A DNA stretch of 25,267 bases from a virus. The position numbers were made by a program, and so were the translations under genes. Positions 1-24,700 of the stretch are shown here, piece by piece. How positions within the stretch are numbered: the first letter of the stretch is position 1; each line of letters opens with the position of its first letter. The notes beneath the pieces are model-generated. The model worked only from the letters and a program-made list of their open reading frames with translations. It had not been told where the DNA came from and ran no database searches. The stretch is taken from positions 1 to 25,267 of the IMG/VR virus record IMGVR_UViG_3300035633_000452; one strand, 5' to 3'.

Positions 1-198
1 CTCAGAGCGTTCTTGAAAACATCCAACTGCTGATTAGTATCGCTAGCATAACGAACAACAGAGAAGCTTCCTTCGACAGTATAAGCAACCGGCTCATGAC
101 TAATGATTTCAAAGATACCAATCGACTCAATTGGTACATGTTGTACGTTATGCTAGCGATACTAATCAGCAGTTGGATGTTTTCAAGAACGCTCTGAG
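1..198. repeat. Fold-back inverted repeat at left edge
   Basis: Bases 1-53 are an exact reverse complement of 146-198. After one mismatch (54 versus 145) the match continues for six more bases, giving arms 1-60 and 139-198 with a 78-base spacer. The left arm starts exactly at the first base of the window. The spacer plus left arm, read on the minus strand, encode protein that is collinear with the downstream tube-like gene, so one DNA segment is present in both orientations. The hexamer TGTTGT at 139-144 pairs with ACAACA at 55-60, which is the microhomology expected if a 3' end folded back and primed on itself. I infer an amplification or assembly chimera rather than a genomic feature. A true inverted duplication cannot be excluded without reads. 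Confidence 0.9.
3..143 (-). pseudogene. Inverted fragment of the tube-like gene
   Basis: The minus strand from 143 down to 3 is open in one frame and reads QHVPIESIGIFEIISHEP, continuing to a segment that ends VVRYASDTNQQLDVFKNAL. It aligns without gaps to the second tube-like protein (593-1201): QHV matches NHV, HEPVAY matches HQPVSY, and the G-S-hydrophobic pattern that follows is shared. The last 20 or so codons are the same codons found on the plus strand from 140 onward, with one silent difference in a valine codon (base 145). This is therefore the true upstream coding sequence of the plus-strand gene, shown in reverse because of the fold-back. It is not an independent minus-strand gene. 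Confidence 0.8.
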
Positions 199-562
199 TG
201 GTGATACTTCTACAAATCAGCAGGCAGCTAACCACGCGGCAGGACTTCAAATCAATGACCATATTAACCCAGGTGCAATATTGACATCTACTACTTTCGA
301 TATGGAAGTTGTTGAAAAGTCTTCTGGAACTGAAAAAAACGTTAACTTCTTCACCATTAAAGATTGTAGGATTACACGTCGAGGATCTTCTCTTAATAAG
401 AGAAATGTTCTTGTTGATCAATATAGCTTCGTTGGTCGTCTTGCTGAAGATGGAGACGCTGTTGAAGGTACACCTGACGTCGCACCATCTCCTGGCGAGG
501 CAGGTGAGAGTACAGGTAGTGAAGCTACTGGCGCTGGTGGCGGTGGTGGCGGTGGTGAATAA
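131..562 (+). CDS. Tail-tube-like protein 1, 5' end disrupted
   Basis: This is the C-terminal part of a structural protein related to the next gene. Shared features are the VVRY / VIKY segment near the start and the later KDCRIT / RDCRFT strand followed by a KR-containing hairpin and an acidic turn. Such small beta-rich proteins just upstream of the chaperones are typical of contractile tail tubes and tube-like baseplate adaptors (T4 gp19, gp48, gp54); the assignment is inferred from fold pattern and position. The protein ends in an acidic, Pro/Gly-rich tail closing with seven glycines (about 538-557), which the paralogues lack. The frame is open only from 107, and the TTG at 131 is an artefact of the fold-back junction. 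Homology to the real protein begins at about 140. The true N-terminus is missing; more of it is readable on the minus strand at 143-3. The next gene has its own strong ribosome binding site. Confidence 0.7.
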   Translation: MVHVVRYASDTNQQLDVFKNALSGDTSTNQQAANHAAGLQINDHINPGAILTSTTFDMEVVEKSSGTEKNVNFFTIKDCRITRRGSSLNKRNVLVDQYSFVGRLAEDGDAVEGTPDVAPSPGEAGESTGSEATGAGGGGGGGE

Positions 563-592
563 GGTTAATCTCTTAACTTTTAGGAGGTTAGC

Positions 593-1201
593 ATGGCTAA
601 TCAAAAACCCTTCTTTATTACTGGTGCCAACGCTGCTATTAAAGTAGATGGTATCAATGTTGCTTACGCCAACTCAGTCTCTTGCCAAGTCACTGTCAAT
701 CATGTATCTCCTCGTGTACTTGGTAGGGCTGAGGTTGAAGCACATCAGCCAGTTTCTTACGATGTATCTGGATCTCTAACTGTAATTAAATACGGTCAAG
801 GAATTCGGGAGTTTATTGGAAGCGACAAATCTCCAAGATTATCCACAAATAAAGGTAATGGTCCAGGTTCTTTTGAAGCCGAAGGTTCACTGGTTTCTAG
901 GGCGTTAGGTTTACCTAAATTATTAGGTGATGACCCCACAGGTGCAGCAGCAGAAGGTTTCGATCCTTTCCACTTCTTCCAATCTAAGCAGTTTAATATT
1001 GAGATTCAGCAAAAAGCTGGTGGCAATGAAAAGATAGATATAGCAACTATGATTAGGTTGAGGGACTGTAGATTCACTGGACTTCAATTTCAACTTCAGA
1101 AACGTGGAGCTGGTACCATGGTGATGGCATTTAAAGCACGCTATTATGACGATGATACAATAATAGCTAGAGGTTCTGGAGTAGGTCAGGAGCTTAGCTA
1201 A
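593..1201 (+). CDS. Tail-tube-like structural protein 2
   Basis: This 202-aa protein is predicted to be beta-rich and is the only complete close relative of the broken gene upstream. It begins MANQKPFFITGANAAIKVDG, followed by alternating hydrophobic strands, a HQPVSYDVSGSLTVIKY hairpin (about residues 50-66) and a C-terminal RDCRFTG strand (about 157-163). This pattern matches the tube-fold family that makes the inner tube or its baseplate-proximal rings in contractile tails. The family assignment is inferred from pattern, size and position, not from a search. The start is secure: AGGAGG at 582-587 lies six bases before ATG 593. The stop overlaps the next start (TAATG at 1199-1203), so translation is probably coupled. 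It could be the major tube protein or a gp48/gp54-like tube initiator. Confidence 0.65.
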   Translation: MANQKPFFITGANAAIKVDGINVAYANSVSCQVTVNHVSPRVLGRAEVEAHQPVSYDVSGSLTVIKYGQGIREFIGSDKSPRLSTNKGNGPGSFEAEGSLVSRALGLPKLLGDDPTGAAAEGFDPFHFFQSKQFNIEIQQKAGGNEKIDIATMIRLRDCRFTGLQFQLQKRGAGTMVMAFKARYYDDDTIIARGSGVGQELS

Positions 1202-1797
1202 TGGCAGTTGAAAATAAAATTACAAAAAATGGTTCAATAGTTGGAGCTGCTGGTGGACTTTTACAAAACTCTCTAGAGTCTGCTATTGGCGGCATATCCC
1301 CTTTAAATGATTTTGGTAAATACTTCACAGGTCTTAGGGCGATCATAAAGATAAACGATCGACTATTTGGCTTTGCTTTTGCTGTAACGATGAATATCAA
1401 ATACCAGACCGATGAAATTTGGACTATCGATAACACTCTACCTCATGAACTTGCACCACAAAAGATGATAGCCAATGGAACTATTTCAATGTTTCACATT
1501 CCTGGTAGAGGGCCAGGTACTAGACATATTACACCAAACGTGCTATCGTTGTTGAATCATAGATATATAACTATCGACATATCTGATCAAACAACTGGCG
1601 AGACTATTTTTAAAACAGATAAAGCAATGATAGTAGGTAGATATCAGGATGTTCAAGCTGATAAGATCTCTACCATAAAGCTAGATTGGAAAGCTATCGA
1701 GTGGCAGACAGAGAATGCACCAGCAGAACCAACTGGAGCGAGTGAGTCAGCAGACACTGGAGATAGTGGTCTTATTCCAAATTTTAACCTTTTTTAG
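1201..1797 (+). CDS. Tail-tube-like structural protein 3
   Basis: This 198-aa protein begins with a Gly/Ala-rich stretch (to about residue 35), then the segment FTGLRAIIKINDRLFGFAFA, which matches the AAIKVDGINVAYA segment of protein 2. A histidine-led hairpin (HELAPQKMIANGTISMF, about 81-97) corresponds to HQPVSYDVSGSLTV, and a closing strand pair ends KLDWKAIEW. I read it as a third, more diverged member of the same tube-like family. In T4, gp48 and gp54 are tube-like proteins that cap the baseplate and start tube assembly, and one of the three could have that role. The C-terminus (about 165-190) is Ala/Glu/Ser-rich and probably disordered. AGGAG at 1188-1192, inside the end of gene 2, precedes the ATG, which overlaps the upstream stop by one base. 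Confidence 0.55.
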   Translation: MAVENKITKNGSIVGAAGGLLQNSLESAIGGISPLNDFGKYFTGLRAIIKINDRLFGFAFAVTMNIKYQTDEIWTIDNTLPHELAPQKMIANGTISMFHIPGRGPGTRHITPNVLSLLNHRYITIDISDQTTGETIFKTDKAMIVGRYQDVQADKISTIKLDWKAIEWQTENAPAEPTGASESADTGDSGLIPNFNLF

Positions 1798-1798
1798 G

Positions 1799-1804
1799 TA
1801 TAAT
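1799..1804 (+). promoter_or_regulatory. TATAAT in intergenic gap, possible late promoter
   Basis: TATAAT lies two bases after the stop of the third tube-like gene, in the 38-bp gap before the chaperone gene. I see no convincing -35 hexamer, which would be acceptable for a phage late promoter that uses its own sigma factor. The same hexamer occurs in two of the other gaps in the window (9029-9034 and 21645-21650). In an AT-rich genome this could be chance. Confidence 0.25.
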
Positions 1805-1835
1805 CTTCATATCGGTCTATGAGTTGGAGATTTAA

Positions 1836-2255
1836 ATGTATAAGAGCTTACCAAAGATAGAGAAAACTTTCGAAATTGAAGTAGAAGGTGAAACCACTGG
1901 AATCAAGTATGAAGGTAAATTCACATCTAAATGCGTACTCTCTCTAGCTGATAAGCAAAGTCTTGAGCTTGAGAAATCGCGCCTAACAGCAGATTATGCA
2001 AATCCAAGCGGCAAACTATATGCTATGGCAACTATGGTCTCATCTTTGCGAGCTCGCCTAGTCGAATTTCCTGAATGGTGGAAAGAGGTTGGAAACGGAT
2101 CTGATCTTTTAGATGAGAATGTGCTAGTAGATATTTTTGATAAATGTGAAGATCTTGCATTAGAGTGGAAGAATGATCTCAAGAAAGCCTCTGGTAAGGA
2201 GGAAAAAGAGAAATCGGGAAACTCGAAAAAGGAGAGCGGGAAGAGCACTCCATAG
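1836..2255 (+). CDS. Tail assembly chaperone, G-type frame
   Basis: This 139-aa protein has a mixed alpha/beta N-terminal half (about residues 1-110), including FEIEVEGETTGIKYEGKFTS and a WWKEVG segment, and ends in a lysine/serine/glutamate-rich disordered tail. It sits directly upstream of the tape measure gene and is followed by an overlapping reading frame in -1. That is the classical arrangement of tail assembly chaperones such as lambda G and G-T, which bind the tape measure during tail assembly and are absent from the mature virion. The start is supported by GGAG at 1826-1829, six bases before the ATG. The assignment rests on position, size and overlapping frames rather than on a recognised motif. 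The slippery region falls in the charged tail, about eight codons before the stop. Confidence 0.7.
   Translation: MYKSLPKIEKTFEIEVEGETTGIKYEGKFTSKCVLSLADKQSLELEKSRLTADYANPSGKLYAMATMVSSLRARLVEFPEWWKEVGNGSDLLDENVLVDIFDKCEDLALEWKNDLKKASGKEEKEKSGNSKKESGKSTP
2196..2231 (+). promoter_or_regulatory. Candidate programmed -1 frameshift site
   Basis: The chaperone frame and the downstream open frame overlap from 2198 to 2255, with the second frame in -1. Within the overlap the best slippery heptamer is G AAA AAG at 2225-2231 (zero-frame codons AAA and AAG). A weaker candidate, GGAAAAA, lies at 2201-2207. AAGGAGG at 2196-2202 is a strong internal Shine-Dalgarno-like sequence and could stimulate slippage, although it is farther upstream of the first heptamer than in the well-studied dnaX case. 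Slippage at 2231 would give a fusion of about 282 residues. Confidence 0.55.
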
Positions 2256-2683
2256 TTGACATTATAGACTCAATATCTGAATCTCACTTTTCTAAAGATA
2301 ATCCAGACTATACATTGCATTTTTTACAAATGTGGTGGTGTAAAAAATACAATAAACCATTGAAAGATCCAATTCTTATGCAGTACTCTGTAGAGGAGTT
2401 ATTGTATGAGATGATGTCGCATAGGCATTATGACAATGATCTAAATAGACAACGTCAAGAAGAAGCTGATAGAATAGAAATTGAGAAGTATGATGAAGAC
2501 GTTGAATGGGCAGAAGAAATGGAACGTCTTGAGGCAGAAAAGCTTAAACAAGACACCAAACCTCCTACTTCTCCTGCTGAAGCTCCTCATAACCAAGAGT
2601 GGATGCAGCAGATAATTGAAGAAGAGAAGAAGAAGTTTGGTGACGATTTTGGTGAAGATATTTCTTTTAACATGGATGAATAG
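2231..2683 (+). CDS. Tail assembly chaperone, T-type frame (-1 extension)
   Basis: This frame is open from 2198 to the stop at 2681-2683, in -1 relative to the G-type frame. It has no ATG or GTG, and no TTG before 2315; that TTG lacks a ribosome binding site and would cut off part of the conserved block. Expression by -1 frameshifting is therefore the simplest reading. The product contains HFLQMWWCKKYNKPLKDP followed by a YSVEELLYEMM helix, a pattern I associate with the second chaperone domain in large phages. After that comes a long charged helix (about 2420-2560) rich in Glu, Asp and Arg, a Pro/Ala linker, and an acidic end. The T domain is expected to bind the tape measure protein encoded two bases downstream. 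An annotation of only 2315-2683 would miss the N-terminal part. Confidence 0.65.
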   Translation, partial: GEREEHSIVDIIDSISESHFSKDNPDYTLHFLQMWWCKKYNKPLKDPILMQYSVEELLYEMMSHRHYDNDLNRQRQEEADRIEIEKYDEDVEWAEEMERLEAEKLKQDTKPPTSPAEAPHNQEWMQQIIEEEKKKFGDDFGEDISFNMDE

Positions 2684-2685
2684 AT

Positions 2686-5600
2686 ATGGCTACAAACTAT
2701 AATAGAGGTAGAGGTAAAATTTCTTCTCGTATTGAAGAAGCCATCTCTAGAAGAGATAAAGAATTAGATACAGTAACTTCTGAAACTGCTAGAAGGATAG
2801 AGCAACTTCATAAAGCGAGAGAAGAGGCTGTTGCTAAGCGCATAGAAGATCTTCAAGAAATTAAAGAGAGTATAGCTGAGTTAGAAGTTGAAAAATATAA
2901 ATACTCTCAAACAGGTCGTCAAAAAGAAGCTGCTGTTTTACAAACTCAAATATCTGATTTGAAAGATAGTGAAGTAAATCTTACTAGAAGAGGTAGTCTA
3001 AATCTAGATCGCCTTTTTGAAAAAAGAGAACAATCTGACATGCAAAGAAGGTCAGAAATTACAGCCGCTCAACAGGGTTTTGAGCGATCTATGGCTTCTG
3101 CAATGTCAACAAGACAAACAGCATCTGAGATATCTCAAGCAAGATCTAGAGAAGAAGTTAGACGTAAAGCAATTGATCAAGCCTCTAGACCTGAAATATC
3201 AACATTTGAACTTCAGAGAAATATAGAAAGAAGACGAGAGCTACTTAAGACTGCTCAGGGAAGAGTGCTTGAATCTGCTAGAGGTCAGACACTGGAATCA
3301 ACTCTAGAATATGATGAGCGTAAGGGCGCTGTTTTAGACGACAAGGCACAAGCAGAGCTAGCATTTGGTAGACGAGTAAGCCCTCTCCTTTCACAACGTA
3401 TAGGTGTAGAGCAGAGAATAAAAGGCAGCATTGCACAGGATGAAGAAACTCTTGCTGAAAGAAAGCGACTAGGTCTGGATATATATAGTCGCTTCAGTAG
3501 AGCTAGCGCTAGAGCTGAACAGGTAGAGACCACTGAAAGACAGGGAATGCTTCGTAGAGAAGTATTGGGTGGCCAATACAATAAAGCAGACATTGATAAA
3601 GAAGTTGCTGAAAAAACTAGAGAATTAATAACCACCTTTAGTGAATTAAATAAAGCCTTTAAAGAGGGTTCAGAAAATGCTGACATGTTGTCAGCAAGTT
3701 TTGAAAAGGTTGACTCGGAGCTAAAAGAAAAACAATTTATTCAAAGAGAGTTGGCTAGAGTCCCAAGTGGTCGTGACATTTCAGATACACTTGGTTATGT
3801 CGGTAGACAGTTTCAAGGTGTGGGTGCTGCATTATCTACTGCTGGTGAAACCTACGGCTATGGCACGGTAGGTGTTCAAGAACAGCTTATGGCTAATCGT
3901 ACTGCATTTGCAGAAAGAGCTAATCAGATTAATCGAGATGCTATTTCAGCAGCACAGGGTGACTTTTCCGCTATTCGACGAGTGTTAACAGGCCAAATTG
4001 AGCAAGAAGCATCCTACGGTGCTCAAATAGGCAATATGCAAGATACTGCTCAAGGGTTTGGTCTGTTGGGTAGTGGTGCTGTTGCTTTAGGTGCAATTAC
4101 ATCAGAAGGTGGTGATCTTGCTAGTCGTTTTATAACCGGTAGTGCAATTAACCCACTGATGGGATTAAAAGCTGCTGCATCTGGCGCTCTAGAAGACATG
4201 GGTCAAGCTGCTCCTTCAATCGGTGGATTTTTAAACAATGCAGCAGACTATCGATTCCAAATACAACAAAAAAGAGCTGAACTAGGTGCACAACAACAAG
4301 CACGAGCGCTTGATAGTGCAATTAATGCGCTTTCTGATGAAGCAGGTCAAGCTGGATTAGAATATACTATCAGTGTTGCGGAAGCTACTAGAGGTCTTGG
4401 GCGCGGTCAAGTAGGTGCTAGACGTGACAGACCGTTGTTAGAAACAGGTCAGGCACTTCAAGATAGATCTGCAAATATTCAAGAATCTACTTTAGGATTT
4501 TTCTCTGGTGTTGATCTTGATTTTAGAGATACACAGAGAGAGAGCTATAGCAGAGAGTACCGTGGTAGCAGCATTCGCCGAATGACACCAGAAGATCAGG
4601 CTATAAGATCGAGGAACGTAGATAGGGGTATTTCTGACAAGTTTATGGATTTTGTTGATTTCACAGAATCTCTTGGGAACGCTATTCCACAATCATCGAG
4701 ATCGGCTTACAATGGACCACTTCGTCCACTGTCTGAAGGCATGGATGGAATAATGAGAGAAGGTGGTGAATCTGCTACCGATAGAAGATCAAGATTACAG
4801 CAAGCTCTTAGAGATCCTGCTGAGATAGCTGAAGAAAGTGGACTTACTCAACAGCAACTTATTGGCCTAGTTGGTCAATCTATCCAAGGACTAGGATCTC
4901 AATTCTCTAGAGATCCTGAACAACTAGAAAGATTGGAAGAAGCTGGAAGGTTAGCTCGTTCAGGCTATTTACGCTCTCCAGAACAGGCAATTGAGTTTCA
5001 AACTAAGCTCACAAGACTTGGTGGCGATGAGACTGACACTAGAATGAGAAGTGTCATGGAATCAGCTTTTGCTGCTGGTTTTGATAACTCTACAGCATTC
5101 TCTGAATTGGTAAACGTAGCTACAGAAACAGCAGCCAATACAAAAGCTACTGCTTCTGGTATTGATGTAACCAGTGCAGCTTCAAACATTGCGTCAATAG
5201 CTTTTCAGGCTGGTGATAGAGGTATGAATGAGTTTCAAAGAGCTCGTTCAGCACAAACAGCCATAGGTCGCATCAGCGATGTTATGACTAGCGGAGATAT
5301 GTCTTTCGGCAACGTTATGGAAAGACAATATCTGCAGCAAGGCTTAGAAGGTGCAGATACACTTCAGATAGAACAGATATCTCGAATGTCTCCTGCAGAA
5401 ATAAGAGCTTTGAATGAAGCCTTTGCAAAAGGTGATGAAGCTGGGCAACGATACATACAGCAAAACTTTCCAGGACTTCAAGGAACTTTAAAAACAGGAG
5501 AGGACATAGAAGCAGTAAATAAAGCTGGTCGTGCAAATGTTGTTTTTGGAAGTGGGTATACATTAGGCGTTGGTGGCGAAGGTGTACCAGCACTGAAAAA

Positions 5601-6120
5601 ATTTATTGAAACAGGCGATAAATCGGCTTTTGACAATCTAGATAGCAAAACTAGAAATAACATCCTTTCAATGCTACAAATGGAATACGGTAAACCAGAT
5701 ATTGCTATTGGTGCTATTACAGCGACCACATCTGCAGATGATCCACAAAGAAGAGCTTTAGATCAACGCGCACAAATCAGTGCTGAGCAACTTAGAAATG
5801 CTAGGGCTGAAGGTCAAGCAACAGTTACATCTGCTGGTGTAGAGCAAGTTGAAGATGTTGGTATAAGCAATGTAGCTAAAATAATGAAAGAAGCTGCTGA
5901 TCAGATAGATTTTGGCGCATTTAAAAAAGCAGCTGAAACTGCAGCTTCAGATCTCAGCGTATCGCATACAGCTTTCAAGACTGAGTTGGAGTCTATGACC
6001 GGTAATGTTAAATTTATCACCGATGCTCTTATGGAAATTGGAACCAGCTTAGGGTTGGTTAAGATAGACACTAATAGTAGAGGTAGGTATAACTTCGGTG
6101 GCAACAGAAGGGGTAGATAG
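2686..6120 (+). CDS. Tape measure protein
   Basis: This 1144-aa protein is the longest product in the early part of the operon and directly follows the chaperone pair, the standard place for the tape measure, which sets tail length and is ejected ahead of the DNA. Residues 1 to about 370 are strongly charged (Arg/Glu/Lys/Gln) and predicted coiled coil. About 452-515 is a hydrophobic, Gly/Ala-rich segment (GLLGSGAVALGAITSEGG and onward) that could insert in a membrane. The remainder is Ala/Gln-rich and helical with few aromatics. Both ends are Arg/Gly-rich (NRGRGK at the start, GGNRRGR at the end). I see no peptidase or lysozyme motif, so it may lack the cell-wall enzyme some tape measures carry. 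At the usual 0.15 nm per residue its length suggests a tail of roughly 170 nm. ATG 2686 follows the previous stop by two bases, with only a weak ribosome binding site. Confidence 0.85.
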   Translation: MATNYNRGRGKISSRIEEAISRRDKELDTVTSETARRIEQLHKAREEAVAKRIEDLQEIKESIAELEVEKYKYSQTGRQKEAAVLQTQISDLKDSEVNLTRRGSLNLDRLFEKREQSDMQRRSEITAAQQGFERSMASAMSTRQTASEISQARSREEVRRKAIDQASRPEISTFELQRNIERRRELLKTAQGRVLESARGQTLESTLEYDERKGAVLDDKAQAELAFGRRVSPLLSQRIGVEQRIKGSIAQDEETLAERKRLGLDIYSRFSRASARAEQVETTERQGMLRREVLGGQYNKADIDKEVAEKTRELITTFSELNKAFKEGSENADMLSASFEKVDSELKEKQFIQRELARVPSGRDISDTLGYVGRQFQGVGAALSTAGETYGYGTVGVQEQLMANRTAFAERANQINRDAISAAQGDFSAIRRVLTGQIEQEASYGAQIGNMQDTAQGFGLLGSGAVALGAITSEGGDLASRFITGSAINPLMGLKAAASGALEDMGQAAPSIGGFLNNAADYRFQIQQKRAELGAQQQARALDSAINALSDEAGQAGLEYTISVAEATRGLGRGQVGARRDRPLLETGQALQDRSANIQESTLGFFSGVDLDFRDTQRESYSREYRGSSIRRMTPEDQAIRSRNVDRGISDKFMDFVDFTESLGNAIPQSSRSAYNGPLRPLSEGMDGIMREGGESATDRRSRLQQALRDPAEIAEESGLTQQQLIGLVGQSIQGLGSQFSRDPEQLERLEEAGRLARSGYLRSPEQAIEFQTKLTRLGGDETDTRMRSVMESAFAAGFDNSTAFSELVNVATETAANTKATASGIDVTSAASNIASIAFQAGDRGMNEFQRARSAQTAIGRISDVMTSGDMSFGNVMERQYLQQGLEGADTLQIEQISRMSPAEIRALNEAFAKGDEAGQRYIQQNFPGLQGTLKTGEDIEAVNKAGRANVVFGSGYTLGVGGEGVPALKKFIETGDKSAFDNLDSKTRNNILSMLQMEYGKPDIAIGAITATTSADDPQRRALDQRAQISAEQLRNARAEGQATVTSAGVEQVEDVGISNVAKIMKEAADQIDFGAFKKAAETAASDLSVSHTAFKTELESMTGNVKFITDALMEIGTSLGLVKIDTNSRGRYNFGGNRRGR

Positions 6121-7913
6121 TGGCTACTATAGAGCATATTAAAAAGGTTAGCCATGCTGCTATTAAGATATTCAACTACGATGAACGTGGTAATGCAGAT
6201 GGTATATCAAGCCCTGATGACATCTTTGAAAAAATAGATTTAACTAATGAGATTATCTCTATTGATGTAAGTAAAGATAAATCATCACCTTCTGGTGAAT
6301 TTCAATTTTATCTAGCACCTACCTCAAATTGGGTGTCACGCATTACACCGGGCAGCTGGTGTGTAATCATGATGTCTAATGACAAAGATGCAATTAACTT
6401 TAAAAAAGCAGATCGCAAATCATTGAAGATGGTTGGTAGGATTACCTCTGCCAGATTAGCAGTTCAGGTAGATGATGCTACTGGTGCTAGAAATACGCAA
6501 TACGTTGTTACTGGTAAAGATTGGGGATGTGTATTTGAATCTCTTATATATATCGACCCCATCTTTCGTGGCTCAACCATCGATGGAAAAAGTGCAATAT
6601 TTCAAGCTTCTGCTTTGCTGAGTAGCTATAAGGCTAGTTGGATAAATGGACAGGGTTTACCAACTCCAGGTAATGTAGTTAAATCACTTAAAGCACTATG
6701 GGGACAAGAAGAAAATCTATTATCTAGTTTTGTAGGAGCTTTGTCTGACTCTAGCTCTTTTAAAGTTCAACCAACTCTAGCCTCATTATCTTCTTTTCGT
6801 TTACCTTCTTTAGTTGCAGATTACTTATCTAAAGATACTTCAATATCTGGTACTTCCTCTAATTTTGCTTCATTTATTACTGATGTTGAAGGTATACTAT
6901 CTTCTGAAGATAGTTATAAAACTGAAAGTGGCTATGATGGCTACGGAATGCCAGACATACATGCACTATATGGAATTAATAGGTTTTGGGATGTTCTACA
7001 GCAAAATGCAAACCTATCTTTAAACGAGATGTTTTGCGACATTCGTTGGGACGACAATCTACCAAGATTTGCCCTATATAGAAGAATAAAACCATTCTGT
7101 CTACGTGCTGAGTTTGAGGGATCTAAAGATCTTACTAACAAGATATCCTTGTTTAAAAACATACGTAAGATAAAAGTAAAAGCATCTGAGGTTATTGATA
7201 TCAATGCTGGAACAAATTGGCGAGATCGTGTTAACTTCATAGAAATGAAAGCAGCACCAAACCTAATAAGGGATTTTTTCAGTAGCAGTGTCAAACTAGA
7301 TCAGCAGATTGCTGATGCTAAATCTATTGAACGAGATGGCTTTAGACCATTTCCAATAAGCATGTCCACGGCTACCTATCTACCATTCTCTTCTAATAAG
7401 CCAGGTCAAAATGATAAGAACGCTTTGGATTTTGTAAATTGGAAGTATCTCTTAAAAGAGTGGAACTTCAATACCCATACATTGCTGAACGGATCTATGA
7501 ATATTGTTGGTCAAGATGATTATATTGGAGTTGGCGACAATATAATGGTTAACGCATCAATATTTGGTGGTGGAAGTTTTAACTCATCAAGCTCAAATAG
7601 TTCAGCATATCTACTTGTGCACGTTGAAGGTGTTAGTCATAACATGCAGGTTACATCAGAAGGTGCTAGAGTCTTTTCAACATCTATACGCTTTGTGCGC
7701 GGTGTATTTACCGATGAAGAAGGTAATCCACTTTCTGGTAATGGTGTAGCTGGAGTATTAAGCTCATTCGCTCCTCCATCTTTGGGTGCTGGAGGTGGTC
7801 CACTTACTGAAGGTATAGATGACAAAGCTTCTGATACAAAGGGTGTTGATTTTGGTACAAATAACAAAATAGCACCTAAAATGAACTCTTCAAATGATCC
7901 AAAGGGAGAGTAA
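6120..7913 (+). CDS. Baseplate hub protein (gp27/GpD-like)
   Basis: This 597-aa protein directly follows the tape measure. It starts with GTG, sharing its first base with the upstream TAG (TAGTG). The N-terminal region has two patterns typical of hub barrels: a 'TPGSWCVIMM' strand preceded by an APTSNW segment (about 67-85), and 'MVGRITSARLAVQVDD' leading to a YVVTGKDWG motif (about 103-140). The C-terminal part has LLVHVEGVSHNMQV followed by ARVFSTSIRFVRG (about 497-530), again a hub signature. Hub proteins form a trimer linking the tube to the spike at the baseplate centre. The insert between the two parts (about 160-330) is Ser/Leu-rich and unassigned. The C-terminal 60 residues are Gly/Pro-rich and probably flexible. 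I see no lysozyme domain. The assignment is from motif memory and gene order. Confidence 0.7.
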   Translation: MATIEHIKKVSHAAIKIFNYDERGNADGISSPDDIFEKIDLTNEIISIDVSKDKSSPSGEFQFYLAPTSNWVSRITPGSWCVIMMSNDKDAINFKKADRKSLKMVGRITSARLAVQVDDATGARNTQYVVTGKDWGCVFESLIYIDPIFRGSTIDGKSAIFQASALLSSYKASWINGQGLPTPGNVVKSLKALWGQEENLLSSFVGALSDSSSFKVQPTLASLSSFRLPSLVADYLSKDTSISGTSSNFASFITDVEGILSSEDSYKTESGYDGYGMPDIHALYGINRFWDVLQQNANLSLNEMFCDIRWDDNLPRFALYRRIKPFCLRAEFEGSKDLTNKISLFKNIRKIKVKASEVIDINAGTNWRDRVNFIEMKAAPNLIRDFFSSSVKLDQQIADAKSIERDGFRPFPISMSTATYLPFSSNKPGQNDKNALDFVNWKYLLKEWNFNTHTLLNGSMNIVGQDDYIGVGDNIMVNASIFGGGSFNSSSSNSSAYLLVHVEGVSHNMQVTSEGARVFSTSIRFVRGVFTDEEGNPLSGNGVAGVLSSFAPPSLGAGGGPLTEGIDDKASDTKGVDFGTNNKIAPKMNSSNDPKGE

Positions 7914-9010
7914 TGTACGATTATATAGTTAATGATTCATCTATTCTGACTAAAGATGACGATGGGTTAAATAGGTTTCCAGATGCTAGACCACCTAATG
8001 GAATTCATATAGGTATTGTTAGGACTGTTGAGGAAGCTGTGGATGAGCAGTTGCTATATATAATTGAAATATTTATGGAAGGTAAGCAGTATCCAGTTGC
8101 TTGTAAGCCTATTTTTAAATTCGGTGGTGTATATAACTATGAAGAATATAACTTTCGTCCTTGGAATGCTGCTGGACTAGAGGATAATCTTCCAATATCG
8201 GCTGACAGTTATGAATATAGAAATGGAGATGCTGTTGTAGTTGGTCTACTTAATAACGACACTCGTGAGGGTGTGATATTAGGTGGGCTGCAACACCCTG
8301 CAAGATCACAGCAGGTTCCAAATGAGGATATTCAATATTATTCTGTGTTTCAGGGTTTAGAAAAGCAGATTAGAACTGATGGTAGCTATAAGGTTACTTT
8401 TAATGGTGCGGCTACAAATGAAGCTACTTTAGAGGTGCCACCTACCGGTGTAACTGCAATTGATCCAATATATAATCCACTAACAGCTGGTAGTTATTAT
8501 GGTTTTGACTCTGAAGGTAGTTTTGTTGCTACAGATGCGGGACAGATCACTACTCAAACAATTAAGATTTTTAAAGACTCTACTGGCAATGGATCAATTA
8601 TTCTAAAGTCTGGTCAAGTAGAAGTAGAGATAGGTGGCAGTATTGCAACGGGGCAATTTGGTGCAAAAGCATCATCTATTACTCTAGATGCACTACAAGC
8701 GGTGAACATTGGATCTAAGCTTAAAACAAATATTCAAGGAACTCAACTTAGTTTAAAGGGTTTGCAGGTTGCTATCGGTAATGATAATGTTGAATTAGTT
8801 TCAGCACTAGTAGAACTTATTACCGAACTAGGTTTAGTAATTGTTAACAGCCCTGTCGGCACATGTACCCCAATATCTACATCTCCTAATTGGGCATCTA
8901 AAGTGATACCACTTCAGGTAAAATTACAGCTACTAGCCGGCAGTCTTGAAGATGCTGAGTCGTTTTCACTAAATGGTGATGATAGTGAAGATATTGGAGA
9001 TGATATCTAG
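7913..9010 (+). CDS. Baseplate central spike protein (gp5/GpV-like)
   Basis: This 365-aa protein has an OB-fold-like N-terminal domain: GIHIGIVRTVEE (about residue 30 onward) and then GDAVVVGLLNNDTREGVILG with LQHPAR (about 105-131). This is the hallmark of GpV/gp5/VgrG-type spikes. After it comes a beta-rich section with repeated short strands (about 150-275), consistent with a spike shaft. The C-terminal helical segment ends in a strongly acidic tail (DDSEDIGDDI). The spike caps the hub trimer and pierces the host envelope. No lysozyme domain and no PAAR tip motif are visible. ATG 7913 overlaps the upstream TAA by one base, with GGGAG just before it. A 41-bp gap containing a hairpin follows the stop. 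Confidence 0.75.
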   Translation: MYDYIVNDSSILTKDDDGLNRFPDARPPNGIHIGIVRTVEEAVDEQLLYIIEIFMEGKQYPVACKPIFKFGGVYNYEEYNFRPWNAAGLEDNLPISADSYEYRNGDAVVVGLLNNDTREGVILGGLQHPARSQQVPNEDIQYYSVFQGLEKQIRTDGSYKVTFNGAATNEATLEVPPTGVTAIDPIYNPLTAGSYYGFDSEGSFVATDAGQITTQTIKIFKDSTGNGSIILKSGQVEVEIGGSIATGQFGAKASSITLDALQAVNIGSKLKTNIQGTQLSLKGLQVAIGNDNVELVSALVELITELGLVIVNSPVGTCTPISTSPNWASKVIPLQVKLQLLAGSLEDAESFSLNGDDSEDIGDDI

Positions 9011-11629: not shown

Positions 11630-14600
11630 ATGACAGTTAATATTCGCAGTTTTAATCAAATATTAGGTCAGATGGTCAGAAAGATCGTTGCCGATACACC
11701 GCTCAATGACATTAGAGAAGGTTCAGCATTACTAACACTATTGGAAGCAGCTGCACAATCTGACTTTGAAAACAATGCATCTATACTTAATGTATTAGAA
11801 TTGCTTAGCATCGATGCTCTAAGAAATAGTGATCTAGATGCACGTGCTACAGATCTTGGATTATCTAGAATTGCTGCACAACGCTCTACAGGCTTTGTAG
11901 AAATAGGTGACAGCTCTATTACTAAACGAAGTACGACACTTTTTCAAGTAAAACCAGCACCGATCGCAGGTTCAACAGTTCTTTTTGTAAATGACGCTCA
12001 AAGTTGGAATTCTACTGGCGGTGAACTGTTTATTGGTCGAGGGACTGCTAACTTTGAAGGTCCTATTACCTATACATCTATTATAGATAATGGATCTTTC
12101 TACACTATCAACCTAGCATCAGCACTTCAGAAAGACCATCTATCTTCTGAAACTGTTGTTGATGCACAGGGAACTGCAGATAGAAGAATTGTTCAGGGTA
12201 CAGTAGTAATCATTCCTCCCAATAATCAAAACCCACAGATTGAATTTAGAACACTTAGGGATGCTACTATTCCAGCTGGTGAAGATGTTGTAACCAATGT
12301 GCCGATAGTTTCAATTGTTGCTGGCACTAGATCTAATGCAGGTATCAACACCATAACACAGTTCTCATCACCGCCTTTTACTACAGCTACAGTAACTAAC
12401 ACCACAGCTATTACAGATGGCAGAGATGTGGAATCAGATGATGACTTCAGAGAAAGAATTAAAGCTTACTCGAACTCGCTAGCACGCGGTACTGAGAATG
12501 CGATTCTTTCTGAAGTTATTGGTGTATCTGATAACGATGACGGTAAACAAGTAGTTTCCGCAACAATAACAGAGCCTCCCAGAGTTGGTGACCCTTCGAT
12601 TCTATATATTGATGATAGCACTGGATTTCAGCCTAGTTTTCAAGGTCAATCAGTTGACCAACTATTGACTGAAGCGTCAGGAAACGAGGAGTTCTTACAG
12701 CTTGCAAACTTTCCACTACCAAGACCGCAAGCGGTAAATGCAGCTGATGGTCCTTATGAGATATCAGAGGGTATGACACTTAGAGTGTTAGTGGACGGTG
12801 TAGAAGAGCAGGTTACATTCTCTACAAGTCAGTTTATTAATAGTGCTTCTGCTACATTGGCTGAAGTTATAGTTGCTATTAATGACCAAAGCAACACTTT
12901 TAAATGTACTTTTACGGCAAATTCTACTAGACTATTATTGTTTCCAACTAGCTCAGAATCTGAAACAATTCAAGTTGCAGCACTTAGAGATAATGAAGAT
13001 TCTTCTCTATATGCTAACAGTCAATTTAAATTCCCTACGGATGAATTTTCTTACATCAGGCTATTTCAAAACAGCACGCTGCTTAGTGAGCGTGCTAGAT
13101 CTGCTTCACTTCTCACAAATGAGTTTAGCAGCTGGAACATTCTAAGTCAAGGCAACATTGTCATAGAAGTAGATGGAACTCCTGCACAAGACAGGCTATT
13201 CACAACTACAGACTTCGGCGGAACTACATTTGAAGCACTAACACTAGATGATTGGGTTAATGCTTTTAATCAGAAGTTTGCAGGATTAACAGCAACAGCT
13301 ACATCTAGTGGTCGCATGCAGATCACATCAAACAATGAAGGTGCAGCTTCGCTAGTTAATGTCGTCGGTGGTTCATTTTTTGACACATGGTTTACTGGAC
13401 TAGATACTAGATCTGCTGGTAGAAACTCAGACTTTGAGCTTAATCGACAAAACGGCAACATTAGAATATTGACACCGATATCTCAGGGCGACACTATTAG
13501 CGCAGGTTCTGAAGATACAAAAGGATCAATAACATCTTCATCCACAACTACAGGTACTTACAACCTAGCTACAGACGCAAACTCTAGAAGAGCTGAAGCT
13601 GTAATCACATCTGACATGTCAGATTTTGCAGTTAGAGAGTCAGCTGTTGCTCCACTAAATGGAACAATAACTATCTCTGATCAAGGCTCTAGTGTTATGA
13701 GGGTTATGTCGAGCAGCGTTACATCTTTCGCATCAGTTGTTCCTGGTGATTTTATCTTCATTACAAATCGGGGATCGCTAGTAGGATGGGTTGATCCAGA
13801 GAATGCAGGTATCTTTAAGATTGTTGCTAAGGGTGGACACTCTTCAGCTGGTGTAGATTCATATGTTGAAGTTAAAAATGCTACAATTGTTCCAGGTACT
13901 CATACGGTAGATTCTGCAGACGATGTTCATGTGTTTAAGTCAGACACGTATCCACAGATCTGGAGCGGTCTACTGACACCAAACCCTGCTTCATCGACAC
14001 TAAACGATATTGTTGAATCGTTTGATGACAATCTGGTTAACGTAATAGCCTCTATCTTCAAAACTAACTCCGTTAAACTAACTTCTACTACTGAAGATGG
14101 TGGAAGTATTGCAGTTCCAGTTTCTACTGGAAACGCATCTACTCTTTTTGCCACTAGACAGGGTCAGCAATCGGGCACACCGTCGCAGATCGCTAATCGA
14201 GCAAACATTACAGCAGCAACCGGATACTTTAAGAGAACAGAGCCTAGCAACTCCGATATCTGGCTTGGCAGATATATCTATTCAGATGTAAGAGGTACAC
14301 TTACTTCAGATGCAGAACCAGGTACAGCGGGAGTAGATGTATACAGTGAACAGCTAGAAGCAACCGGTGTACTGACAGATGCTTTAGTAGACTACGATGA
14401 TGTTCTTAATATAACTGGCGGATCTAACAAATCTCACTACAGATCTGTAAGAGATCTTTTAGCTGGTGATGTTGTTGGTACGCAGCATGAACTTCCAAGA
14501 ACTGTAATGGACTATGTTGTTGATGAGGATATCAATATCATGCGTCCACTTACTTTCTATCCTGATGACAGCATTGTATTCATCTTAGATCAAGATTCAG

Positions 14601-17600
14601 TAGCTAAGACTATTGATGTGTCTATGTCTAGAACTGGTGTTGTCAACAATGAATTTACAGCGACCGACTTGTCGTTCTCTGCTAATGATGCAGATAACGA
14701 ACCTGGAATAACCTTTGGCAACCTTCAAGTTTGGGGCAAAGATACAGCTGATACTGAGTTCCAAAACTATGCCGTCTGGTTCCGTGCTAGAAACTGGTAC
14801 GTGTCTGGTGGTGTAGGTTCAGGCGGTGGATCGATGATTCTTCGTGCGGATGAGTATGGTCCGCACGGTGAAAGACTTAGATTCACTATTGACTATCCAC
14901 AGTCACCTGCTCTTGCAGCAACCATCTCACACAACAACCTACCCGAGCACACAGACATCACGTTCAGGTTTGGTTCTGATATTGAGATACCTACTTCCAT
15001 CGTTGCTGCGGATCAATTTACTGTTACTGATCTAGGTGGAAATAATTTCCGTTATACGTTTCAAAGTGTAGCTACTGACTTCAGTCAGATAGCGGCCGAT
15101 AATATCGTCACCTTCGGCAATGACTCTGGTGTAAGTGCTGCAAACCGTGGAACACTTAGAATTACTGCTGTAGATGATTCACTTAAAACTATCGATGTAT
15201 ATAATCCAAGTGGATCTGCTACCATAGTAGGTTCTGCTGAGGTTACTCAGGTTACCACTGCAGCAGATATCGCCGGATCGACTACCAACTCAAATGTTAT
15301 AGTTAATAAGACAGGAACCGGCGTCAATGATGGTGATTATTTTGTTATAGAGGATTCTGCTGGTCTTGTAGCAGTTTATTATCAAAAAATTCTACCACTA
15401 CCGACACCAGGTTCACTAGGTGTAAATAGAATCATATCTGTAACATTAAGTGGTGGTGAATCTGATGCTACTGTAGCAGGCTTAACAGCAGGAGCACTAG
15501 CTGCTGATTCTGAATTTATCGCATCTGCTATATCGAACATACTTAATATCGACAACGTAGACAATGGACCTTTCCAAATTGCTGCTGATGGTACAGTGGC
15601 TTTTGTTTATTCAGGTACAGTTGGTGTTGCTGACGACAGTCTAGAAGGTGAATATTTCATTCTACAGGATCAGAATGGTAGTGTTGCTTTTTGGTATGAT
15701 GTTTCTGGCGTTGCTACTGAGCCGCTTCATGGTGCTGATCGATCTGTTGAGATCGTCAGTGTTGTTGCGGGCGACAGTGCTATCGATGTTGCATCTAAAA
15801 CCGCAGTAGCAATCACGTCTGATTCACAGTTCTCTGCATCAGCAGCTACCAACATCATCACCATTACAGATGCTAACAACGGAGTTAGACCAACATCTTC
15901 AGCTGGCACAACGCCATTTACCGTAGCTCAGATAACTGCTGGTGTTGACGATACATTTGAAACAATATCTATTCCTTTGTCAGTTAAGTTTTATCCTCTA
16001 CTGAACACTGCTGTAGATGAGATTGCCACTGTTGTGTCTTCAAGTCCATTGATTGAAGCAACTGTGCTAGATAATAGTAATGACATTGTCCTAGCTACAA
16101 AAGATGAAGTTTATACACCTGCTGGTATAGGTGATTTCAGTGTTTCATTGGCATATGGTCACGATCCAGCTAGTACAAATAACGATTACGTATCTTTCTA
16201 TGATTCAATTTCGTGGGTTAAGGATTTTGAAAACTCTAATCCACAGTTTGCATTAAAGAGTCCACTGATTCTACAAGGCGTAGCTCCTAGTGCATATTCG
16301 ATCGACTCAACTGTAAACAGAGATTCAACCGAAACTGGTGAGTTCTTTAAATTAGTGCCAACTACACTAAACAACCTACTGCACCACTTTACACAGAAAG
16401 CATTGTCTCAGCTTCCCATCGTCGCAGATGTAGACATTGCATCTAATATTCGTGGAGTTCAGGTTAAATCAAAGATCGTTGGATCTAGTGGTGCTGTTGA
16501 AGTTGTTGGTGGAAATGCAAACTCTGTACAGTATTCTATATTTGATGAAGGTGTTACTGTAACTCAAAGTGGAAAAGACTTTACTGAGCTTACTATCGCA
16601 TCTTCACCAGTAACGCTTACAGATGGAACTCTTATAAGTGTTGAGAACACAAACGCAGCACAGAGACTATCTCGTGTCAAGAGTTCAGATACATTAGATG
16701 TGTCGGTTAATGTTGACCAGACGTCTGAATACATATACAATCAAAAAGATAATCGCCTTAACAATGTAGTTAAAATGAGTGTTGCTGATCAGTCAGCAAC
16801 TTACTCTAGACCTGCAGGTACAGTATGGCGCTGGACATTTAACGATGCTGGCTCTAAGTTTCGAGTCACTGGATTGAGTCCTGCTTTGGCAGGAACTGCA
16901 CCTAATGATTTTAATGCTGCTGGTACAGGTACAACAGCTGCTCTAGTTAGTGAGCTTGTTCAAACAGGCAGCGCAACAGATGTTCAAATCTTAGACCTGT
17001 CAGTAAATGATCTACCAACGCAAGCAGATTACTTTATATTTGAAGGCCCTTCTGGTGACACATTTGCCGTTTATTTTGACATCGATGGAGCCAATATTCA
17101 ACCTGCAGGCGGTGCAACTCCATTTGGTTTAAGTACTCACAAGATAGAAGTAGATATCTTAAGCAGCGATTCACCGAATCAAGTGACATCTAAGCTATCT
17201 ACAGTTCTTCTAGCTGATCTTAACTTCCTTGCAGACTTCTCTGGAGTACAACTCCAAGGAGCTAACTATGATGAGGTAGGTGAAGGTGATACGCTTATTG
17301 TTGGAGGAGCACTTGATGCGTCATGGCCTAGCGGCAACAAATCAAGACAAACTGGAGACGGTAAGATCGCTGGATTCCCTATCATTGCGACTACGTCTAG
17401 TTACATTGATGTAGTTAATCCAAACGGCGTTGCGATGTCTGACGTATCTATTGAATCAGGCTCGGTAAATATATGTCCTACACCTTTCCTTGAATGGAAG
17501 CTGGGACACTACGCTAAAACAAAGATATCTAACATCATCATTTCAAGCGGTACAGCGACCGTAAACACACCATCTGAGCATAATCTTGAGGTAGGCGATT

Positions 17601-19093
17601 CTATAACTATAGAAGACACTTCATTAGCTCAAACCGTTACTGTACTTACAGTAGATGATCCGATAACTTTTACATTTATAGATACAACAGCAGCTGCTGA
17701 TGGCACTTATGACAATGGTTTTGTTATAGAATCTGGGAAAACAGAAAGTAGATACAGAATTGAAAGTGTTGGATTTAACAACTTATATCGACTAAAAAAT
17801 GTACTAGGTGATGCTCCTCGCTTTACTGATTTCGGTGTTGCAGTTGATGATCTTATGATTATCAGTGGTGAGACATTTGCTAGCAACAACACTGGTGTTT
17901 TCCGTGTACTGGGTGTTGACAATGAGTCTGTGTTGTTTGAAAACTCTTTAGCTTCTGAGCAGCGAGATCTTTTTGTCCCATTTAATAACCTACAAGATGC
18001 TGTTAACTGGGTATCTAACTTTGATGAAGTTAGCGGAACTGCTGGCACATTTAAAAATGTAGCTATAGGTACTTGGGTTAAGAAAAAGGAAGACTCAGAA
18101 GAGCGGTTTGTACAGGTTATTGACCTTCTAGATGCATCAGATGTATCCACTACAGCTGAGCTTGCTGTTAAGTTGAAGCTAGGACAGAACTACACAGGAA
18201 CGAGTTCTAGTGCTGAAGGTGTAGCATTTGATCAGATATCAGGCCCAGATGCAGGCATAGTGCTAGACAGTATCGACGACATTAGATTTTTGGAAGGTGA
18301 TGCAGCAAGGGTTGGTGACTCTATATTTATCGACAACATTGCTAATTCTTCTTGGTTTTCATCCTCAAATGCTGGAAACTTTACGATTCAGCAGATTGGA
18401 ACTAACGCATCTTATAGGCCGTTTGTTAGAGTAGAAAACTCACTAGCTATAGCTCAAACTGGAGTTGATGCTGGTGTTAGCTTGCAAGGTCTATTTATTC
18501 TAGAGAGCGATAGTAATAAATTTAGTTCTGTAAGACTTGTAGAGCACTCATCTATCGATGAAACTGATTCCAATAAGCGTCAGATTTATGTTACTCCAGA
18601 AACAAGAACATACAAAATGTCTCGTTCTAATGGAACTGTCGTGAGATCTCTAGGTAAACTAAACTACTCTAGTGACGTCACTATTGGAATTGACGGCTAC
18701 AACTACTACACAGGACTGCTAAGAACTGTACAAAGAATCTTAGATGGTTTTGAACCTGAAGCTACAACGTTTCCTGGACGCAGAGCAGTTGGTAGCGCAA
18801 TTGAGACACTTGGACCATTGATTAAAAAAGTTTCAATTGCACTAGATGTGGTAACCACAGAAGGTGTTAACGTCAATGAGATTATTAGTGATGTTAAATC
18901 TTCGATAATCGACTATGTTGATGATCTAGGTGTTGGTGAAGATGTTATTCTTTCTGAGATAATAGTTCGTGTAATGGAAATTTCAGGCGTAGAATCTGTC
19001 ACGTTCACAACACCTTCTCCAAACACCGATCGTATTGCAGTGGCAGATAATGAAAAACCATTCGTAACATCTGACAATATTGCAATTGCGTAG
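11630..19093 (+). CDS. Giant baseplate J-like (gp6-like) wedge protein
   Basis: This 2487-aa protein has baseplate J family sequence at both ends. The N-terminal 300 or so residues include a helical start, an IPAGEDVVTNVPIVSI strand and the diagnostic DGRDVESDDDFRERIKAYSN followed by RGTENAI (about 263-290). The C-terminal 140 residues (from about 2347) contain GYNYYTGLLRTVQRIL and the terminal helix-strand pattern of J proteins. P2/Mu J and T4 gp6 are roughly 300-660 aa. The excess here is an insert of about 2000 residues made of repeated beta modules. Two have a dG...tf.t..F..at..EV pattern (about 371-455 and 501-585). At least five have a GD.i.i...N.G.f.I...V.N pattern (about 687, 1128, 1742, 2041 and 2201). 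Three have a YF...G...WYd pattern (from about 1236, 1341 and 1800). One has an HNLEVGD pattern (1984). The protein forms the wedge ring around the hub. ATG 11630 follows the stop by two bases. Confidence 0.85.
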   Translation: MTVNIRSFNQILGQMVRKIVADTPLNDIREGSALLTLLEAAAQSDFENNASILNVLELLSIDALRNSDLDARATDLGLSRIAAQRSTGFVEIGDSSITKRSTTLFQVKPAPIAGSTVLFVNDAQSWNSTGGELFIGRGTANFEGPITYTSIIDNGSFYTINLASALQKDHLSSETVVDAQGTADRRIVQGTVVIIPPNNQNPQIEFRTLRDATIPAGEDVVTNVPIVSIVAGTRSNAGINTITQFSSPPFTTATVTNTTAITDGRDVESDDDFRERIKAYSNSLARGTENAILSEVIGVSDNDDGKQVVSATITEPPRVGDPSILYIDDSTGFQPSFQGQSVDQLLTEASGNEEFLQLANFPLPRPQAVNAADGPYEISEGMTLRVLVDGVEEQVTFSTSQFINSASATLAEVIVAINDQSNTFKCTFTANSTRLLLFPTSSESETIQVAALRDNEDSSLYANSQFKFPTDEFSYIRLFQNSTLLSERARSASLLTNEFSSWNILSQGNIVIEVDGTPAQDRLFTTTDFGGTTFEALTLDDWVNAFNQKFAGLTATATSSGRMQITSNNEGAASLVNVVGGSFFDTWFTGLDTRSAGRNSDFELNRQNGNIRILTPISQGDTISAGSEDTKGSITSSSTTTGTYNLATDANSRRAEAVITSDMSDFAVRESAVAPLNGTITISDQGSSVMRVMSSSVTSFASVVPGDFIFITNRGSLVGWVDPENAGIFKIVAKGGHSSAGVDSYVEVKNATIVPGTHTVDSADDVHVFKSDTYPQIWSGLLTPNPASSTLNDIVESFDDNLVNVIASIFKTNSVKLTSTTEDGGSIAVPVSTGNASTLFATRQGQQSGTPSQIANRANITAATGYFKRTEPSNSDIWLGRYIYSDVRGTLTSDAEPGTAGVDVYSEQLEATGVLTDALVDYDDVLNITGGSNKSHYRSVRDLLAGDVVGTQHELPRTVMDYVVDEDINIMRPLTFYPDDSIVFILDQDSVAKTIDVSMSRTGVVNNEFTATDLSFSANDADNEPGITFGNLQVWGKDTADTEFQNYAVWFRARNWYVSGGVGSGGGSMILRADEYGPHGERLRFTIDYPQSPALAATISHNNLPEHTDITFRFGSDIEIPTSIVAADQFTVTDLGGNNFRYTFQSVATDFSQIAADNIVTFGNDSGVSAANRGTLRITAVDDSLKTIDVYNPSGSATIVGSAEVTQVTTAADIAGSTTNSNVIVNKTGTGVNDGDYFVIEDSAGLVAVYYQKILPLPTPGSLGVNRIISVTLSGGESDATVAGLTAGALAADSEFIASAISNILNIDNVDNGPFQIAADGTVAFVYSGTVGVADDSLEGEYFILQDQNGSVAFWYDVSGVATEPLHGADRSVEIVSVVAGDSAIDVASKTAVAITSDSQFSASAATNIITITDANNGVRPTSSAGTTPFTVAQITAGVDDTFETISIPLSVKFYPLLNTAVDEIATVVSSSPLIEATVLDNSNDIVLATKDEVYTPAGIGDFSVSLAYGHDPASTNNDYVSFYDSISWVKDFENSNPQFALKSPLILQGVAPSAYSIDSTVNRDSTETGEFFKLVPTTLNNLLHHFTQKALSQLPIVADVDIASNIRGVQVKSKIVGSSGAVEVVGGNANSVQYSIFDEGVTVTQSGKDFTELTIASSPVTLTDGTLISVENTNAAQRLSRVKSSDTLDVSVNVDQTSEYIYNQKDNRLNNVVKMSVADQSATYSRPAGTVWRWTFNDAGSKFRVTGLSPALAGTAPNDFNAAGTGTTAALVSELVQTGSATDVQILDLSVNDLPTQADYFIFEGPSGDTFAVYFDIDGANIQPAGGATPFGLSTHKIEVDILSSDSPNQVTSKLSTVLLADLNFLADFSGVQLQGANYDEVGEGDTLIVGGALDASWPSGNKSRQTGDGKIAGFPIIATTSSYIDVVNPNGVAMSDVSIESGSVNICPTPFLEWKLGHYAKTKISNIIISSGTATVNTPSEHNLEVGDSITIEDTSLAQTVTVLTVDDPITFTFIDTTAAADGTYDNGFVIESGKTESRYRIESVGFNNLYRLKNVLGDAPRFTDFGVAVDDLMIISGETFASNNTGVFRVLGVDNESVLFENSLASEQRDLFVPFNNLQDAVNWVSNFDEVSGTAGTFKNVAIGTWVKKKEDSEERFVQVIDLLDASDVSTTAELAVKLKLGQNYTGTSSSAEGVAFDQISGPDAGIVLDSIDDIRFLEGDAARVGDSIFIDNIANSSWFSSSNAGNFTIQQIGTNASYRPFVRVENSLAIAQTGVDAGVSLQGLFILESDSNKFSSVRLVEHSSIDETDSNKRQIYVTPETRTYKMSRSNGTVVRSLGKLNYSSDVTIGIDGYNYYTGLLRTVQRILDGFEPEATTFPGRRAVGSAIETLGPLIKKVSIALDVVTTEGVNVNEIISDVKSSIIDYVDDLGVGEDVILSEIIVRVMEISGVESVTFTTPSPNTDRIAVADNEKPFVTSDNIAIA

Positions 19094-21703: not shown

Positions 21704-24700
21704 ATGGCAGTTTTAGGTAGACTCCTATTCGGATCAGCACAAAGGTTAGACCTGCCTGACCTATTGTCACTTGATTCCTATGTAGCAGGTGACTTTAAGT
21801 TTCTTATCCAAAGTTTCGTTGGTTCAGATACTCCATATATTTTGAAGGGTTTTGAGGTTATTCAGCCTCAAGATGCTATTGGTACTGAAAATATATCTAT
21901 CAGTATTGCTGATTCAATTGTTTATTATCCGACTGCAAAAGCAGGCAGCTTCTATCACGGCTTGCCTGAAGGTGACACTAACGCTCAACCGCTAACACCG
22001 GTACTTCGTAAAAACGCTACTAACTTTGTATACTTAACCTTTAGTACTCAAGACACTAGTCGTGATACTCGTGCATTCTGGGATCCAGATAGCAACGGTG
22101 GTGAAGGTGCAGAGTTTAGTCAAGACGTTAACACTGAAACTGCTCTTATCGTAGAGGTTGGAGTATCAGTTACTTCCTTCCCAGAAGATACGGTTCCAGT
22201 GTGTAAGATTGATGTTGGATCATCTGTTATCGACTCCATCCAAGACTGTAGACACATGCTCTTCAGACTTGGTGCTGGTGGTCTTAATCCAGATCCGTTT
22301 TCCAACTATGATTTTAGAAGCTTACCGGGACCTGGTTTTGAGCGAAACGAGCCATCTACTGAGATGACTTCTGCAGCCGACTCAAATGCATTCCAGGGCG
22401 GCGACAAAAACATCTTCTCTCTAAAAGAGTGGATGGACGTCGTGATGACCCGCATTAAAGAACTTGGTGGTACGACGTACTGGTATCAGGGAAATCCTGG
22501 TGGCGGTGTAGGTTCATCGCCGGGTCTTGCGAATCTATTCACCGACTCGGTAGGATCTACTCTTAAATCAAAAGGTGAATGGTCGCACGATGCAGCAACT
22601 CCAGGTGAAGTAAACTGGAGTGAGGATATTCAATACTATTCTCTTACCGATCCTCGTGTCTCTATCATTAGAGCGTCTACAATCAACCTCGCCAATGAGG
22701 AAGTTGCCTATGTCGACTTGATTAGAGATGCAGATCTAAATGGATCTTCTACTTCTGTTCAGTGGCAAAATGGTTTAAATGCGGTAAACGGTGCGGTTGG
22801 TTCGTTTGAAAACCTTGCAAAAGGCGATTGGACAAAAAGACGATCAGATTCTAAACAATTCTATCTACGTGTTGAAGAATTCTATGCTGGAACTGGACTT
22901 ACTGGCGGAACAACAACTCCCGCTCTAGCCCAGTCTATTAAGCTTAGTGATAGTTACGCAGGATCTTCGGGTACAGATGCAGGTGAATACACTAAAGGTG
23001 AATACCTAACAGCAGACGTTCAGACTGATTCAAGGGACAATGCAGATCCTACCGCAGCTGGAGGTAACTTCTTTTGGCTGTCTTATAGATCTGACACCGC
23101 TGTAGGTATTACAGGTATCACACCTACTCAACTATCTCTTGCGATTGATGCTGCAGATGGTCAGCGAGCTAGAGTCACTGCTACGGCACATGGCTTGCAA
23201 GATGGTGATAGGATCACTATTACGACTGGCGCTTATGTTGGTACTTATAAGGTAGAAGTAGAAGACGCCAACGAGTTCTTTATTGAGACCGCAGTCACTG
23301 GTGACGATCCAGCAGCCGATGCATTCTACGCTATTGTTGAAACCGCTGCAGTAAACACCGATGATGGTTTTAATCTAGAAAGTGCAACACACGGTTTTGA
23401 AGACGATCAATATGTGACAATATCTGGCACAAGTACTGGATACGATAACTCTTATCAGATAAATGTAAGAGCATCTACACTTTTTCAAATTCCAATATCA
23501 TCGCTAATTCCTAACCCAGGTCCAGTAACAGCCGCTAGAGCTACTCTTCCTAGAGTCAATGTTAAGACTGAATTTGGTACTGTTAAAGTAGTTCAAGGAC
23601 AATCGATTGATATCGGTGAAAGTGAAACAGAGAATATTATGTCGTTTGTTGGCATGGACTCTCTTGCACAGACTCATCCAAACTATCTAGTACCAGACAG
23701 CTACAATACAATTAATGGATATCAAAACTACAACTCTGATCCTGAAGATAGCCTAACCACTAGGATGTCAAAGGTCACAGCAATGATGGCTGACCGAATT
23801 CAGGACCGGGGCATTCAGATTGTAGGTCGAGCTAATATAACTAGTGAAACAGTAGCAGCTAATCAAGTGGTTAAATCTACACACGATCTAGTTATCAAAA
23901 AACCTGCCGGTCCTGATCAGACAATCTCAATACAGAACAATGATATTGTTATGCCAGCAAATTCCGTAGCGGTTGTTGAGATAGATCGCGATGGAAGTGC
24001 TGCACTAGTGCCATCTGTAGAAAGCTGGGGAAGCTCGCATCTTTTAGAAGAGAATAAGCTTATCTTGTTCTATCGTTTTAGCGACGATATAGTCTACACT
24101 TGGAACTCTCAAATTCTACAGCCATTTGATCATGTTAATACTGGCAATGTAGAAGATGCACAAAATAGAAATATAATCTTCTACATGCCTGGATCTGTTC
24201 GTTGGGCATCTGGAACAGGTGACATCATATTGGATGTTCAACAGAATCCAGAAGAAACAGATATTCAAACTGTAGATGCAAGTTCTTTTGCTCAAAATGC
24301 TTACTTCGTGCTATATGCCGCAAAAGATCTAAATCAATATTATGTTTGGTTTAATCAAGATGGTGGTGGATCTGATCCAGGTGCTGCAGGTACTGGGATT
24401 GAAGTTGCTATACTTAGCTCAGACACTGCAGACGATGTTGCAAGTAAAGCTGCAGCTGTAATAAATGGAATAGCAGATTTCAATGCAACTGTAACCGATG
24501 ATGTAATTAACATAGTTAACGCAGATGTTGGTGAAGCTACAGATGCTTCTGATGGTGCAATTCCTACAAACTTCATATTTACAGTAGTGTGTCAAGGTAT
24601 TGATCCCGATCCGACTATCGTAATTCCAGGTTCAGTGAACGACAATGCTATTGATGCAGATGCGATAAATCTAAGCGGTTCGCTTCAAATTCAAGATGGA

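Follow-up and report, generated by a model that had tools for sequence, protein, structure and literature searches.

The window analyzed here, an entire IMG/VR record of 25,267 bp (IMGVR_UViG_3300035633_000452), begins within a tail-tube-like gene. Two tube-like paralogues lie in tandem (1–562 and 593–1201) and are followed by a third protein (1201–1797), an order that is kept in relatives (L158, 5273–7045; L159, 5490–7306). The second paralogue is intact and gave weak matches to the tail protein family phrog_365 and to the Pfam family Phage_tube_2; the third protein weakly matched the same PHROG as this copy, phrog_3776. The first paralogue is in correct orientation only at 199–562, its C-terminal part according to the list of open reading frames and the read-through alignment described below, and in the stretch that immediately precedes it (146–198). 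Further downstream, the window encodes a very long baseplate J-like protein (11630–19093, 2487 aa), to which the counterpart from Myxococcus phage Mx1 is 35% identical over the N-terminal part (L003, 17977–23754), and a frame encoding 1188 aa or more (21704–25267) leaves the contig at its right end.

Position 1 of the window is the first base of the contig, and it is there that an inverted repeat begins. A base-by-base check agreed with the perfect repeat of 53 bp announced in the original prediction, 146–198 being the exact reverse complement of 1–53. The perfect arms are adjoined by a single A·A mismatch (A54 opposite A145), beyond which six more base pairs are formed between ACAACA (55–60) and TGTTGT (139–144), with no complementarity past these bases; the six-base microhomology and the mismatch at 145 had likewise been described correctly. 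A repeat search returned the same structure as arms 1–60 and 139–198, at 98%. The left arm (1–53, minus strand) carries sequence of the tube-like gene inverted at the contig terminus, the right arm (146–198, plus strand) carries the same stretch in its correct orientation, and the loop between them (61–138) consists of unique coding sequence of this gene, present in inverted form only, with a minus-strand frame reading approximately HVPIESIGIFEIISHEPVAYTVEGSFS. One genomic segment is present twice, in inverted orientation and with its copies joined through a turn, as is the case in fold-back chimeras. The short complementarity at the turn, another trait of such molecules, comprises 6 bp, the A·A mismatch and probably 1–2 bp more.

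Repeats of this kind were rare in the sequences surveyed. The next-longest inverted match anywhere in the 25-kb window measured 16 bp, and the longest local inverted repeat in 30 dinucleotide-preserving shuffles of the window ranged from 12 to 24 bp. Across other viral loci totalling 1.4 Mb, no inverted repeats of at least 25 bp within 2 kb were detected, none of at least 18 bp were detected at 68 other contig ends, and no fold-back was found at the right end of this contig. With 0 of 68 sampled ends folding back, such ends cannot be very frequent in this collection, and this was counted against an artefactual origin of the left end.

The minus strand of 1–145 reads QHVPIESIGIFEIISHEPVAYTVEGSFSVVRYASDTNQQLDVFKNAL, is free of stop codons and runs in frame into 199–562. 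When the minus strand of 145–1 was joined to the plus strand of 199–562, a single tail-tube-like protein was obtained, which aligned with the intact orthologues of related phage contigs. The peptide encoded by the minus strand of 1–145 matched eight intact first-copy orthologues (E 7e-12 to 7e-10) at the position expected for the missing middle of the gene, whereas the plus-strand frames of the same bases gave nothing better than E 8 against these eight proteins; the missing middle is indeed readable on the minus strand only, as had been proposed. The read-through protein reached approximately 90–103 bits against the orthologues, compared with 69–73 bits for the plus-strand ORF 131–562 alone. 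This TTG-started, truncated ORF, which had been anticipated as a false gene, is made by the junction, and its first residues come from the inverted part. The alignment of the read-through protein with the copy of record G003 covered 130 residues at 39% identity with 0 gaps, and those with the remaining orthologues contained 3–4 gap openings. As for the paralogue at 593–1201, the ungapped alignment reported earlier held across the inverted part (peptide residues 2–33) but not over the whole read-through, which required 3 gap openings. Taken together, the orthologues, the read-through alignment and the two neighbourhoods presented below support a true locus that is collinear and lacks the inversion.

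Relatives were collected by scanning viral contigs with a two-sequence alignment of the baseplate J protein of the window and its Mx1 counterpart. The scan returned 32 relatives, with 54–60% identity in the nearer group, and their occurrence in records as long as 175 kb suggests a large contractile-tailed phage. One single-protein scan of viral contigs returned 1 distant relative. Among annotated phages, no match was obtained by blastn with positions 1–4000 of the window, nor by tblastn with the tube paralogue and the proteins at 6120–7910 and 7913–9007. Two tube-like copies were present as open frames in 12 of the 13 nearest records (one copy cut by the contig end), and the 13th record starts inside a tube copy. 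In records G001 and G002, an additional tube fragment or copy is apparently located some 1 kb downstream of the first copy.

The gene order was read in two relatives, where genes were named by position and by eye and not by family search: a sheath-like gene is followed by tube copy 1, tube copy 2 and the homologues of 1201–1797 and 1836–2255, with an additional gene between the sheath-like gene and copy 1 in one of them. Since this order matches that of the window, the window must break off inside copy 1, and the read-through therefore lengthens the gene without completing it. With the intact copy of G003 as reference, about 34 N-terminal codons are absent from the read-through and lie outside the contig. 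The original prediction, in which the intact gene was the reverse complement of 145–1 continued from 199, was thus right as to collinearity but yields a gene that is still short by these codons.

Phage inversion switches generally consist of a coding segment flanked by inverted repeats, and the left end of the contig shares this anatomy: a recombinase could flip 61–138 between the 60-base arms and so switch the tube gene. However, flipping 61–138 restores no gene, because the left arm, which would then lie upstream, contains 3 stops in the frame of the gene (plus frame 1), and no alternative intact gene is produced; in the relatives, the frame of the gene is open and no internal stops occur in it, and no recombinase appeared among the family matches obtained for the contig, which is itself a fragment. 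A real invertible segment was consequently considered exceedingly improbable. Hardly any credence was given either to a true genome terminus of hairpin or palindromic form (telomere), or to a palindromic intermediate of phage replication, sequenced through its turn. The structure is indeed a hairpin at a contig end, but the tail gene around it is conserved and has sheath-side neighbours in the relatives; moreover, the hairpin has a 78-nt coding loop between its arms and interrupts a gene that should extend some 34 codons further, whereas a true palindromic end would be located outside conserved genes. It was also judged highly improbable that the junction is present in vivo in part of the population, be it as a palindromic replication intermediate or as a rare rearrangement inactivating the first tube copy.

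We consider instead, with a probability of about 0.94, that bases 1–145 represent a fold-back (inverted) chimera of laboratory origin, retained by the assembler as a contig end, that is, an ordinary artefact and not biology. In the phage, the tube-like gene would be collinear and would extend to the left beyond the contig. An imperfect inverted repeat occurs naturally in the true gene (GTACAACA ... TGTTGTTC), its six-base cores being 78 nt apart. At the upstream half of this repeat, the antisense strand would end in a free 3' terminus (...TGTTGTAC-3'), which would fold back about 80 nt on its own molecule and anneal, with one internal A·A mismatch, to GAACAACA (window 53–60), in which ACAACA (55–60, minus strand) is the probable annealing site. 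Extension of the annealed end by a polymerase would then copy the gene back toward its 3' part; we infer that this occurred during whole-genome amplification or during end repair/PCR. Starting from the contig body, the assembler would have traced the chimeric reads around the turn and halted once it met sequence it had already incorporated, which left the 53-base arm.

The putative priming strand was identified from base 145, which is A, as in the folded strand's own end, and not the T that a copy of A54 would give. On the minus strand, the codon across 146–144 is GTA (Val), and Val occupies this column in the aligned orthologues and in the paralogue. Because this codon is conserved, A145 and probably C146 are likely to be genuine primer bases, and the junction (139–146, plus strand) would comprise TGTTGT, the mismatched A145 and probably C146 as the self-primed 3' end. 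The mismatch, which is present as first described but had been placed after the microhomology, would thus probably be internal to the primer and not at its tip, so that it could survive with a proofreading polymerase as well as with Taq. The next codon upstream, as read from the arm, is AAC, which would not fit the residues found there in the relatives (Ala, Ser, Val or Thr); pairing therefore probably ended at about base 147. A 5-bp hairpin, GTACA/TGTAC (134–138/142–146), was also considered as a priming site and rejected, since a strand primed there would be extended by copying leftward from 133 (CCAA...), whereas the bases that actually follow 146 are complementary to those running leftward from 52.

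Self-priming of a folded strand and a turn made by the assembler had been proposed side by side, and the geometry of the junction matches published artefacts of the former kind. A pure assembler error, with no chimeric DNA molecule in the library, is very unlikely. In favor of such an error, the arm coincides exactly with the contig terminus, and its 53 bases could correspond to a k-mer overlap of that length; a tie to the k-mer of a particular assembler is left as speculation. Nevertheless, the turn shares six bases and then a mismatch, far under any usual k-mer or overlap length. With only six shared bases, the library must have yielded chimeric reads, which the assembler merely followed before stopping.

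Chimeras with comparable features have been described. In multiple displacement amplification (MDA), 85% of the chimeras were inversions, which arose mostly within one molecule by priming at short complementary stretches that measured up to 21 bp (Lasken and Stockwell, 2007; PMC1855051). As in those molecules, nearby segments of the same molecule are joined here in inverted orientation at a few complementary bases of a 3' end, although the spacing is short (about 80 nt) and one mismatch lies inside the paired stretch. During library preparation, single-stranded ends can anneal through naturally occurring, near-perfect inverted repeats, which inverts the intervening sequence and carries mismatches along (PMC10908179). 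The resulting self-pairing (PDSM) chimeric reads, formed by fragmentation and end repair, resemble our junction in the short, near-perfect natural repeat, the inverted middle and the mismatch carried over, but they were found as soft-clipped reads of human targeted libraries, whereas here the chimera has become fixed at the end of a metagenomic contig. Palindromic MDA reads are likewise pervasive and disturb assemblies (PMC13265396); palindromic artefacts enter assemblies in both cases, that study dealing with long-read mitogenomes and ours with a metagenomic viral contig. By this comparison, the observed junction would be compatible with both the MDA route and the library end-repair route.

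The relevance of the chimera is confined to annotation. A spurious, truncated tube gene with a TTG start will be called by gene finders at 131–562, and any comparison should be preceded by masking or trimming of bases 1–145. More generally, a coding sequence that passes smoothly through an inverted contig end provides a cheap test for fold-back artefacts.
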